A stretch of 64,000 bases of DNA from Picosynechococcus sp. PCC 7117 (lineage in GTDB: Bacteria > Cyanobacteriota > Cyanobacteriia > Cyanobacteriales > MRBY01), in assembly GCF_001693275.1 (NCBI RefSeq), contig NZ_CP016477.1:1054001-1118000 (forward strand), given 5' to 3'. Both the position numbers and the translations under genes were made by a program. The notes under the pieces are model-generated. The model was given only the letters and a program-made list of their open reading frames with translations, was not told where the DNA came from and ran no database searches. Of this stretch, positions 53,947-63,452 are shown piece by piece (position 1 is the first letter of the stretch; the number at the start of each line of letters is the position of its first letter).

Positions 53947-54348
53947 TTACCAGACGTAGCAAAGAATTTCACCACCAATACCTTCTTTACGGGCTTGGCG
54001 ATCTGTCATCACGCCTTTGGAAGTTGAAATAATCGCAATTCCAATCCCACCGAGCACGCGAGGCAAGTCTTTGTGGTTACTGTATACCCGAAGCCCCGGC
54101 TTACTTACCCGTTGAAGTTTTTGGATAATCGGTTGACGATTACGACCTTTGTACTTCAGGGAAATAACAAGGTGTTTTTCAATCCCTTCACCTGCTTCGG
54201 TGTAGTTGTCAATGAAACCTTCGTCCTTCAGCACTTCAGCAATGCTCCGGGTCATGCGAGTCATCGGGACTTTTGTGTTGTCATGCTGCACCATGCACGC
54301 ATTACGGATGCGGGTGAGCATATCGGAAATGGTATCGTTAGCCGCCAT
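53947..54348 (-). CDS. rpsH: 30S ribosomal protein S8
   Basis: The 133-residue protein has [19 protein letters not shown] and the C-terminal [28 protein letters not shown]8 binds the central domain of 16S rRNA and in E. coli represses the spc operon. It follows rplE directly: rpsN (S14) is absent from this place. Confidence 0.97.
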
Positions 54349-59024: not shown

Positions 59025-59348
59025 CTATACTTCTGGGAACAATGTGATTGTATCCCCTTCTGCCAAGGTGATGACTGCCCGCTTGTACTGGGGTTTGAAG
59101 CCCATAAAGCGACCGACGCGCTTTTTCTTGCGGGGTGGCCGACTGGTGTTGACCTTAACAACTTTGACTTCAAACAGAGTTTCAATGGCTGCTTTGATGT
59201 CGGTTTTTGTTGCTTTGAGGGCAACATCAAACACATATTTGTTGTCTTCAAGCAGAATTGTCGCCTTTTCACTAACAATGGGCTTGAGAATTAGATCAGC
59301 GAGGTCACGGGTTGGCACCCGGCTCGCGGTAGGCATTCTACTAGTCAT
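59025..59348 (-). CDS. rplW: 50S ribosomal protein L23
   Basis: The 107-residue protein has [30 protein letters not shown] and the basic loop [15 protein letters not shown]23 is the exit-tunnel docking site for SRP and trigger factor. Its ATG overlaps the end of rplD by 8 bases; ATG 59336 is an alternative start. Confidence 0.96.
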
Positions 59349-59973
59349 TGTAAACCTCCTGGATTTTAGCCAGTGCTTCGGAGGTGACTACGATTTTGCC
59401 AGCGTTAAGAATATCAAAAATATTCAAACCATCGGCAGGAACCATTTTCACAGAAGCAATGTTGCGGGCAGAGAGATATACGTTGTCAGTCATCTCAGCA
59501 AGTACAAGGAGTACTTTTTCTCCGGATGCGACGCCCCAGCGGGTCATGGCATTGACCAACTCTTTGGTTTTGGGAGCGGCAAATTGCTCGGCAAAGTTTT
59601 CAACGACGATGAGATCTCCGTTCCGGCTGTGGAAAGCGGTACGAAGTGCTAAACGACGCTCTTTGCGGTTCATTTTAAGGTTGTACTCTTTGGGTTTGGG
59701 GCCAAAGATGACACCGCCACCTTTCCATAATGGGGAACGGATTGAACCAGCTCTTGCCCGGCCAGTTCCTTTTTGACGCCAAGGTTTGCGTCCACCCCCA
59801 CGGACTTCTGCACGGGTTTTCGTGGAAGAAGTTCCCTGACGTGCGTTATTTAGCTGACGTACAAGGGCGCGGTGGACAATATGTGCGGCATTTTCTTCTT
59901 TGGCAACTTTGAAGTCGAGGTTGGCCTGGCCAACTTCTTCTCCTTGCCAATTTTTTACTGCGCAGTTAACCAT
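59341..59973 (-). CDS. rplD: 50S ribosomal protein L4
   Basis: The 210-residue protein has [39 protein letters not shown], the loop that enters the exit tunnel. In E. coli, L4 represses the S10 operon through a leader hairpin; a hairpin leader exists here before rplC. Confidence 0.97.
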
Positions 59974-60073: not shown

Positions 60074-60715
60074 TTACTTTTGGCCCACAATATTGCTCGG
60101 AGCAATACTTAATAAATTGCCGGCTTTGCCAGGAATTGCACCTTTGATCAGCAATAAATTCTTTTCTTCGTCAACGCGAACAACTTCGAGTTTACGGACG
60201 GTGATCTTGGTTCCACCATAACGACCCGCCATGCGCTTACCGGGATAAACGCGACCGGGAGTCGTCCCTGCGCCGGTAGAACCGGGGAGACGGTGGTTCT
60301 TAGAACCATGGGTCATGTTGCCTCGCTTAAAGTTATGGCGTTTTTGATAACCAGCGAAACCACGACCAATGGTATTTCCAGAAACATCGACAACTTGGCC
60401 GGCCTCAAAAATATTTGCGGTGATCGCTTGGCCAAGTTCATAGCCAGAAACGTCATCGAGGCGATATTCCTTGAGGTGGCGGAGGGGGGCAGCATCTGCT
60501 TTTTTGAGATGCCCCAGTTGAGGCTTCGTTAAGTTCTTTTCCTTAACGTCTCCGTAGCCGATTTGCACGGAGGTGTAGCCATCTGTTTCGGAGGTTTTGA
60601 TTTGGGTGACGGTACAGGGCCCTGCTTGGACAACGGTAACAGGAATCGCAGTTCCAGTTTCGTTATCAAAGATTTGGGTCATACCGAGTTTAGTACCGAG
60701 GATACCGAGTGACAC
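60074..60715 (-). CDS. rplC: 50S ribosomal protein L3
   Basis: The 213-residue protein (GTG start at 60715, [17 protein letters not shown]) has [24 protein letters not shown] and [21 protein letters not shown], the loop near the peptidyl-transferase centre. It is the first gene of the long leftward cluster; rpsJ is not upstream, as is usual for cyanobacteria. Confidence 0.96.
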
Positions 60716-60757
60716 GGAACAGAGACCTCTATCTACTAATAGACAACATTAAAAGGT

Positions 60758-60812
60758 GAGTAGAAATAATATGAACCGCTCCCGAAGGAGTTGTGGTTCT
60801 TGTCTTCTACTC
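60758..60812 (-). promoter_or_regulatory. Nested hairpin in the rplC leader with UUCG tetraloop
   Basis: Three nested stems pair: GAGTAGAA (60758-60765) with TTCTACTC (60805-60812), GAACC (60773-60777) with GGTTC (60795-60799), and CTCC (60779-60782) with GGAG (60787-60790). Read as the rplC transcript the apex is C-UUCG-G, an extra-stable tetraloop. The structure ends 43 bp before the start codon and has no T-run, so it suits a protein-binding leader rather than a terminator. Confidence 0.65.
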
Positions 60813-61307
60813 TTGGATATTCAGAGTGTTTTATGGCTCTGAAAGGTTTTTGCCTACAGGTAGGTGTACTACGTTTTACCCAAGACTTAAAGCGCTTGCT
60901 TCAGTATCTTGCTGTAACTGCAGGAGGGGGGCTGTCGCTTGGGGCGATCGCCTAAAAATTGTGACCGGAAAATGCAGCCTGAGGGAAGCCTGTTTCTGGG
61001 TTGAACCGATGCGACGAACAAGGGGGCAGGGGTTCTATGCTTCGTCAGGAAACTTCGTATAACTGGTTACATTTAGCCACAAGCGAGCATTATAAGCGGA
61101 GAAAGTGAGCCTTGGCAAGGGGCGTATCAGAAAAACATGACAGTTCTTAATTCTTGAGACAGAGATTGACGCTTTGAAGGAGATTTTTGGGAGTTCAAGG
61201 AACCAGGGGCGATCGCCAATGCTGTCTAGGATCGGGGCCAGCATAAAGTGTTACGATTGCCACAGAACGAAGAAAAGTGATCATAAACAAAAGGACAACA
61301 CGCAATA
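60813..61307. other. Rest of the intergenic region between divergent rplC and pnp
   Basis: These 495 bp should hold the promoters of the ribosomal cluster and of pnp. Two GCGATCGC sites are present (about 60943 and 61211). An 89-codon open frame at 60793-61062 has no protein-like features and overlaps the leader hairpin, so I do not call it. No further motif is recognised. Confidence 0.5.
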
Positions 61308-63452
61308 ATGCAAGAACATATTCAGTCGATTTCTTTCGATGGGCGAGAAATTCGACTAAAAACAGGTTTGTTTGCGCCTCAGGCCGGCGGGTCAGTTTTA
61401 ATTGAATCAGGAGATACAGCGGTTTTAGTCAGTGCAACGACAGCCCCTGGCAGACAAGGAATTGACTTTCTACCTTTGCTGGTAGATTACGAAGAACGGT
61501 TATACGCAGCAGGACGAATTCCCGGTGGTTATCTAAGAAGAGAAGGCCGACCCCCAGAACGGGCAACGCTCATTTCGCGCCTCATTGACCGACCGATGCG
61601 CCCGCTATTTCCCCAGTGGTTGCGGGACGATATTCAGATTGTCGCCACAACGCTCTCCCTCGATGAAGAGGTGCCGCCGGATGTTCTCGCTGTGACGGGG
61701 GCTTCTGTGGCCACATTGCTCGCGGGTTTACCTTTCTACGGGCCGATGGCTGCCGTCCGGGTTGGTCTGGTGGGGGATGATTTTATCCTCAATCCCACCT
61801 ACCGAGAAATGATGAATGGGGATTTAGACCTCGTGGTTGCTGGCACCCCCGACGGTGTGATCATGGTTGAGGCCGGAGCCAATCAGTTGCCAGAAGCGGA
61901 CATGATCGAGGCGATTGATTTCGCCTACGAGGCGATCCAAGAGTTGATCGAAGCCCAACGCGCGCTGATGAAGGAACTTGGCGTTGAAATGGTTAGCGCT
62001 GAGCCACCTGCTAAGGATGAGGAACTCGAAAAATTCATTGGCGATCGCGCCACGGACAAGATCAAAAAAGTCTTGAGTCAATTTGATCTCGATAAAAATG
62101 GTCGCGATGCCGCCCTCGATGAAATCAAAGCAACAGAAATCATTGAGGCCATTGAAGCTCTGCCGGAAGATGCACCACTGCGGCTGAAAACCACAGAAGA
62201 ACCCAAGCTCATTGATAACACTTTCAAGGCGCTGACGAAAAAGCTGATGCGGAGCCAAATCGTCGAAGATGGGGTTCGGGTTGATGGTCGTAAATTGGAT
62301 CAAGTGCGCCCCATTTCCTGTCGCACTGCTGTGTTACCGAGAGCCGTCCATGGTAGCGGTTTATTTAACCGAGGTCTGACCCAGGTTTTATCCATTGCCA
62401 CCCTCGGAACGCCCGGTGATGCCCAAGAGATGGACGATTTACATCCCTCCGACGAAAAGCGCTACTTGCACCATTACAATTTCCCCCCCTACTCCGTGGG
62501 TGAAACTCGCCCAATGCGATCGCCTGGCCGTCGGGAGATTGGTCACGGGGCCTTAGCCGAACGCGCCCTTTTACCCGTATTGCCGCCGAAGGATGAATTT
62601 CCCTATGTCATTCGGGTCGTTTCTGAAGTCTTATCTTCCAACGGCTCTACCTCTATGGGCTCTGTCTGTGGCTCTACCCTGGCCTTGATGGACGCTGGGG
62701 TACCCATTGCAAAGCCCGTGAGTGGTGCCGCGATGGGGCTGATCAAAGAAGGAAAAGAAGTCCGTATCCTCACCGATATCCAAGGGATTGAAGACTTCCT
62801 CGGCGACATGGACTTTAAGGTTGCCGGGACAGCTGACGGAATTACCGCCCTCCAGATGGATATGAAGATCACTGGCCTGGCCGTTGAGGTGGTCGCAGAA
62901 GCGATTAAGCAAGCTTTGCCCGCTCGCCTCCATATCCTTGAAAAGATGACCGATGTCATTGCCGAGCCGAAGGAATTGTCCCCAGCCGCTCCCCGTCTGC
63001 TCACCATTAAGATTGATCCTGATTTAATTGGGATGGTCATTGGCCCTGGTGGCAAAACCATTAAAGGGATTACCGAGCAAACCCGTGCCAAGGTGGATAT
63101 TGCCGATGACGGTACCGTAACGATTGCCTCCTCTGAGTCGGAAAATGCCGAGAAAGCCAAGCGCCTAATCGTAAACATGACTCGCAAGCTCAACGAAGGG
63201 GATGTGTATTTCGGTAAAGTCACCCGTATTATTCAAATTGGTGCCTTTGTGGAAATTATGCCGGGGAAAGAGGGCATGATTCACATTTCGCAACTGGCAG
63301 AAGGTCGCGTAGGCAAAGTCGAAGATGAAGTTGCTGTCGGTGATGAAGTAGTGGTTAAAGTGCGCGAAATTGATAATAAAGGACGCATTAATCTCACCCG
63401 CCTAGGGATCCATCCTGATGAAGCAGCCGCCGCTCGGGTTGCTGCTCAATAA
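61308..63452 (+). CDS. pnp: Polyribonucleotide nucleotidyltransferase (PNPase)
   Basis: The 714-residue protein has two RNase PH-like domains (first with [25 protein letters not shown], second with [14 protein letters not shown]), a KH domain ([20 protein letters not shown], near 565-585) and a C-terminal S1 domain ([33 protein letters not shown]). It degrades RNA 3'-5' with phosphate and can add tails; in cyanobacteria it is thought to make heteropolymeric tails. The length is normal. Confidence 0.98.

Follow-up and report, generated by a model that had tools for sequence, protein, structure and literature searches.

The question raised by this locus is what controls the large ribosomal protein operon that begins with rplC in Picosynechococcus sp. 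PCC 7117, and whether the nested hairpin located shortly before this gene is the site at which a product of the operon is sensed. The operon lies on the minus strand of the window, by which we mean the whole stretch of 64,000 nucleotides analysed, and the features needed at the outset are the following:

60074-60715, minus strand: rplC (uL3), first gene of the S10-spc operon, with a GTG start (NCBIfam TIGR03625).
59341-59973, minus strand: rplD (uL4), whose product was a candidate ligand in the initial annotation (TIGR03953).
53947-54348, minus strand: rpsH (uS8), whose product is the ligand proposed here (NF001109), about 6.4 kb downstream of the leader.
60726-60730, minus strand: Shine-Dalgarno-like AGAGG of rplC (sequence).
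60758-60812, minus strand: the nested hairpin of the initial annotation, a genus-level accessory hairpin with a variable UUCG cap (fold, genus alignment and covariation).

By the gene order of the window, rpsH is found 13 genes after rplC on the same strand. Between rplD and rpsH, rplE was identified by a protein family match, while the other genes carry the names that we take their open reading frame translations to indicate. The polynucleotide phosphorylase gene pnp (61308-63452, plus strand) is divergent from rplC, and the 592-nt gap between the two should carry both promoters.

The hairpin had been described as three nested stems ending in C-UUCG-G, and folding bears this out: folded alone, the minus-strand RNA from 60812 to 60758 forms a first stem of 9 bp (the 8 annotated and a G-U pair that closes them) and further stems of 5 and 4 bp, with the cap C-UUCG-G. 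Its energy is -18.7 kcal/mol, equalled by none of 200 shuffles (z -4.77, for a stretch selected by eye); its 201-nt context gives a z of -2.34, and the complementary plus-strand sequence also folds (z -2.96). The GTG start had been read correctly, and the distance to it is 42 nt (60757-60716) instead of 43. The hairpin is present in all six genomes of the genus, with the innermost stem drawn one pair differently in one of them. In the genus alignment (n=6) its 18 pairs are formed in 108 of 108 cells and four of them are doubly changed, so that the pairing which the initial annotation expected relatives to share is conserved within the genus. This level of covariation is matched by none of 500 shuffles, and slid structures show 0 or 1 double change. 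The UUCG loop occurs in two of the six genomes, the internal-loop strands being better conserved; it is thus the pairing that appears to be selected, and not the cap. The terminator scan of the minus strand, which looks for a G+C-rich stem with a T-run directly after it, gave no hit at the hairpin, in agreement with the annotated lack of a T-run, though a short U-rich tract follows. The immediate neighbourhood of the hairpin includes:

60741-60756, minus strand: U-rich tract CCUUUUAAUGUUGUCU 3' of the hairpin, ending in the UGUUGUCU block common in relatives (sequence, relatives).
60820-60843, minus strand: second hairpin UUCAGAG..CUCUGAA, conserved in the genus (genus alignment and consensus fold).

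The block preceding the start (60726-60750, minus strand) occurs in many relatives as UGUUGUYUAG..AGAGG, in others as GURGUGUGUA..AGGGAGAC; it varies less from genus to genus than the spacer does. By eye, an AGACAA:UUGUCU pairing and a small hairpin at the Shine-Dalgarno sequence can also be drawn in the genus leaders, neither of which we claim.

Outside the genus the picture changes. The hairpin signature GAAGACAAGAACC is carried by 6 of 151 distinct class-wide leaders, which are precisely those of the genus, and by none outside it. Structured spacers at the place of the hairpin are usual across leaders (mean z -1.65, with 52 of 142 below -2). The hairpin is an accessory, local part of a longer leader, and the role of sensor that had been assigned to it finds no support, its sequence being missing beyond the genus and a conserved element being located upstream. 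In the leaders of nearly all relatives, 5' of the variable hairpins, are found GAUACU, a hairpin and UAAGUC, with flanks that pair. In the window this arrangement is composed as follows:

60862-60928, minus strand: S8-site-like element of the rplC leader, an irregular helix P1-P2, a core internal loop and hairpin P3 (R1 match, fold and covariation).
60902-60908, minus strand: core strand 1, GAUACUG; the core matches nowhere else in the window, and the counterpart of A642 is 60905.
60884-60889, minus strand: core strand 2, UAAGUC, counterpart of 16S 594-599 (class-wide alignment, leader pattern).

We take core strand 1 to be the counterpart of 16S positions 639-645 (E. coli numbering), the outer positions being our assumption.

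The rplC loci used for comparison were collected by protein search, 80 of them from named genomes, to which others were added. A first alignment (A2) of 56 sequences was made from the 68 of 109 leaders carrying both GATACT and TAAGTC, after removal of near-copies and one outlier; as both motifs were required, the invariance of the core in A2 is a selection effect, while its flanks were unconstrained. These flanks covary: 79.2% of cells are paired, as compared to 68.3% in shuffled alignments and 52.7% in the best slid version, and the covariation score of 0.395 (0.207 when shuffled) is reached by none of 500 shuffles. Of 100 loci searched with the covariance model R1, 92 match at E<=1 and 77 at the stricter E<=0.001, many of these loci being members of the model. 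In the strain's own genome R1 gives a single match at E<=10, which is the one at 60862-60928 before rplC (41.8 bits, E 9.6e-9). The fold of this element agrees with the model, yet its z against shuffles is only -1.33, and its P1/P2 deviate from the class consensus.

A wider alignment (A4) of 76 matches added the GAAACU and CAAGUC variants. A first pairing of the core, with a 2x1 loop and U23-G53, was rejected, since the GAAAC variants break it and an S8-type pairing fits all 76 sequences. With the S8-type pairing (G-C, A-U, bulge UA, C-G, U-A, bulge A, G-Y) the four core pairs G-C, A-U, C-G and U-A are kept in 76 of the 76 aligned relatives. The pair adjoining the core (columns 20-98 of A4) is A-U in 36, G-C in 33 and G-U in 4 sequences, and unpaired in 3.

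The S8 site of 16S helix 21 is described, in the available text of the structural work, by A595-(A596-U644), (G597-C643)-U641 and the invariant A642, and the E. coli spc mRNA by the triple A+80-(A+81-U+11) (PMC4176348). In the spc DNA of E. coli K-12 we find GCGAAACTG at +4 to +12 and CAAGTC at +79 to +84, and the 16S gene of the strain itself carries CAAGTC ... GGAAACTG at the S8 site (RNA strands CAAGUC / GAAACUG). The leader has the same core nucleotides and pairing as helix 21, whereas the strand order is opposite and the 641 position is U in most leaders and A in the strain's own 16S. With the E. coli spc operator (structure 1S03) it shares the core GANACUG / CAAGUC, the GANACU strand coming first, and the location in an operon encoding S8. 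Three differences separate the two: the operator overlaps the start of rplE, whereas the leader core precedes rplC by 169-193 nt and does not overlap a start codon; the core strands are 66 nt apart in the operator and usually 14-20 nt (quartiles) in cyanobacterial leaders; and the proposed control site stands before the first gene, rplC, 5' of the S10-type genes, instead of at rplE. When run without filters on the E. coli spc operator and on the strain's own rRNA, the covariance model R2 gave no convincing match, so that the likeness to the E. coli operator is one of the core. The element does combine the features by which an S8-binding site is recognised, i.e. an irregular loop, made up of a GANACU strand with the A642 counterpart and an AAG strand, and helices on both sides. 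The core of the leader suggests a class-wide copy of the S8 docking site, with S8 as the candidate ligand, an assignment that draws on independent lines: covariation, which speaks for an RNA structure, a core identical to that of known S8 sites, and rpsH on the same strand.

In order to see how widely the core occurs, the pattern GA[AT]ACT[AG]-N3..60-[CT]AAGTC, derived from the A4 variants, was searched in the 500 nt before rplC. From 185 loci, 2 that were too short and 22 identical copies were excluded, and 151 distinct leaders of the class Cyanobacteriia were counted. The pattern is present in 146 of these, as compared to none of the 151 when reversed and one of the 151 as reverse complement. 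The strict core is missing in five leaders (L118, L136, L143, L156 and L158), two of which (L118 and L143) carry near variants, and it was found in none of ten rplC leaders outside the class. GAAAC, the form of the strain's own 16S, replaces GAUAC in 25 of the 146 leaders. The core with helices on both sides (at least three P3 pairs and the P2 pair adjoining the core) is present in 106 of the 151 leaders; the rest of the same loci (1.37 Mb, both strands) contains nine bare cores, none with both helices. The bare pattern by itself occurs 10 times in the strain's own genome and 45 times in the backwards control.

A class-wide R2 scan with strict filters gave matches in 181 of 388 genomes at E<=0.01, a tally in which the place of the match was not checked and which is below that of the leader scan because the strict filters drop weak matches. 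In the ten genomes in which R2 matches were placed against rplC (G011, G024, G066, G128, G213, G256, G274, G325, G427 and G471) all are upstream and on the same strand. No match to the element was found in the plasmid and phage collections searched. Some individual cases deserve mention. G128 has a second R2 match (C4:49847-49915, E 3.4e-4) off the rplC contig, and two matches are also found in G180 and G317. L032, from a record named Candidatus Gracilibacteria SU_1_2, is a cyanobacterial rplC locus with an S8-type leader and probably reflects a mislabelled or mixed bin. The rplC leader of L131 contains tandem copies of a TTAAGTCAAGCACT-like unit, and L036, L040 and L044 show, by eye, an apparent extra hairpin of the GAGGC..GCCUC type directly 5' of the core.

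For the element to act as RNA it has to be transcribed. The promoter predicted for the operon is:

61089-61118, minus strand: TTGCCA-18-TATAAT (scan and genus), about 280 nt upstream of the hairpin.

TTGC-17/18-TATAAT is present in all five genus rows shown, window included, with TACAAT in one of them. Transcription is expected to start at about 61082, so that the leader would measure about 367 nt. One operon running rpl3-...-rps8-...-rpl15 has been described in Synechocystis 6803, with a start mapped 337 nt before rpl3 (PMC3925133, in the part available). As the element of S. salina (L074), a relative of this strain, is at about -291 to -218, downstream of that start, it would be transcribed. 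Neither the genus-conserved promoter nor the start reported for Synechocystis points to transcription beginning downstream of 60758, and the hairpin is predicted to lie in the rplC transcript, as annotated. Co-transcription of rpsH with rplC is reported, in the sources available, for Synechocystis only; here the two genes share a strand.

We consider it highly probable that the fused S10-spc operon is autoregulated by way of an rplC leader that responds to S8 and copies the helix 21 site, given the sequence, the covariation, the near-universal position before rplC, the identity of the core with S8 sites and the strand of rpsH. An S8-sensing leader is very likely to be common to the class Cyanobacteriia. 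The annotated idea of an autoregulatory leader of a ribosomal protein operon is supported by this long structured leader with an S8-type core and is most likely correct. The ligands then favoured, L3 or L4, are left unsupported by an S8-binding core in 146 of 151 leaders; the alternative that had been added, another product, appears to be the right one, the evidence pointing to S8. Binding of S8, the negative sign of the control and its route are what we infer from sequence comparison.

The proposed mechanism would work as follows. The RNA of 60862-60928 would fold into an irregular helix that mimics helix 21 of 16S rRNA, its strands ordered as in spc. Once the 16S sites are filled, free S8, encoded by rpsH in the same operon, would bind the leader element, and the S8-bound leader would lower expression of the whole fused S10-spc operon. 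The output part probably consists of the genus-specific downstream hairpins and the U-rich tract before the Shine-Dalgarno sequence, and binding of S8 may promote early termination or cleavage of the transcript, or may block translation of rplC. The hairpin at 60758-60812 would be the version of the output hairpin in this genus, and at the U-rich tract (60741-60756) transcripts may end early or be cleaved.

Two sets of observations bear on the choice of route. Terminator-like hairpins between core and start are found in 35 of 146 leaders, as compared to 5-17 in eight shuffled sets; many of them are weak and abut the U-rich UGUUGU block, and none of five genus leaders has one. In Synechocystis the 5' UTR RNA of rpl3, ncl0380, has been reported to go up after UV while the ribosomal cluster goes down (PMC10989929), and a sense RNA of 111 nt, nc26, to end 35 nt before sll1799 (PMC5341163), both according to the sections available. 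Together ncl0380 and nc26 possibly reflect premature ending or cleavage past the downstream hairpins, a translation block being equally possible, and the UV rise of ncl0380 could reflect RNA stability and not S8. The most extended form of the model is put forward tentatively, at somewhat less than an even chance: that in oxygenic cyanobacteria a single S8 operator before rplC governs the fused operon, replacing the E. coli pair of L4 (S10) and S8 (spc), and that S8 binding ends or cuts the transcript at the fast-evolving hairpin and U-rich tract, so that the leader RNA (as ncl0380) is released and the operon silenced.

S8 might instead bind the leader and control only the translation of rplC, without termination or cleavage, the downstream hairpins being insulators or mRNA stabilisers. 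This has a serious chance, though one well short of even. E. coli S8 acts on translation according to the text available of a 2024 review (PMC10931766), and there is no strong T-run 3' of the hairpin; the separate accumulation of the 5' UTR RNA from the operon reported for Synechocystis argues against it, as does the excess of terminator-like hairpins, weakened as this is by the many weak ones, their use of the U-rich block and their lack in the genus. When the leaders were examined for base pairing between the S8 element and the region of ribosome binding, nothing stood out (mean z -0.28, with 11 of 146 below -2).

It is unlikely that the hairpin at 60758-60812 is an independent regulator unrelated to S8, for instance a small RNA in its own right or a target of an RNase or another protein. 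Its conservation and covariation in the genus, the well-kept strands of its internal loop and the 5' UTR fragments reported to accumulate in Synechocystis would all suit such a role, but its sequence is missing outside six genomes, it is part of the same leader as the S8 element, and structured spacers are general.

Control of the kind known from the S10 operon of E. coli, in which L4 (or here L3) would bind the leader at the hairpin, appears very unlikely. The first genes of the operon do likewise encode L3 and L4, and GAUAC has what we take to be a weak resemblance to a segment of 23S domain I. In the available text of a 2005 screen (Axmann 2005, cluster 5), an rplCD leader predicted in marine picocyanobacteria from four genomes is linked to the E. 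coli S10 operon (PMC1242208), with neither structure nor ligand given; it is probably the same leader as the one described here. No L4 or S10 leader family of Rfam 15 was found in the window and eight relatives at the stated E-values, and the hairpin is genus-specific, whereas the class-wide core equals S8 sites. A crude scan of the strain's own rRNA operon for the core in its 2x1-loop form yielded a single match that looks like chance, and no clear 23S counterpart. The E. coli S10 leader, which binds L4, resembles the one described here in leading an operon that begins with S10-cluster genes, and differs in that the S10 gene is not first here, Rfam gives no match and the core fits S8 and not L4. 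That GATACT, which looks like a -10 box, is one, in a conserved transcription start without RNA function, is most improbable and was dropped, since the sequences on either side covary as paired RNA, a distinct promoter with a conserved TATAAT is found about 180 nt farther upstream, and the start reported for Synechocystis at -337 is upstream of the element of its relative.

S8 has been considered as autoregulator of the fused operon before. In Synechocystis its proposed target, offered as a guess in the text available, is the 91-nt rpl5-rps8 spacer (PMC3925133); the place differs from that proposed here, the rplE-rpsH spacer of the present strain being 25 nt long and without the core. According to the sections available of the 2024 review, control of spc by uS8 is known in E. 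coli and Vibrio, and spc-type control outside gammaproteobacteria is unknown, no phylogenetic study having been made (PMC10931766). A text search of a 2020 survey of ribosomal protein leaders shows no mention of cyanobacteria (PMC7247131), and in the open-licence literature searched no paper naming S8 for the rplC leader was found.

S8 feedback by rRNA mimicry, a known principle, is very likely put to use here in a new place and with a larger reach. The leader provides a near-universal candidate site for the whole class, with a named ligand, and the control point would be shifted to the front of the operon. A leader of this kind may also account for the rise of the Synechocystis leader RNA after UV, when the ribosomal cluster declines.
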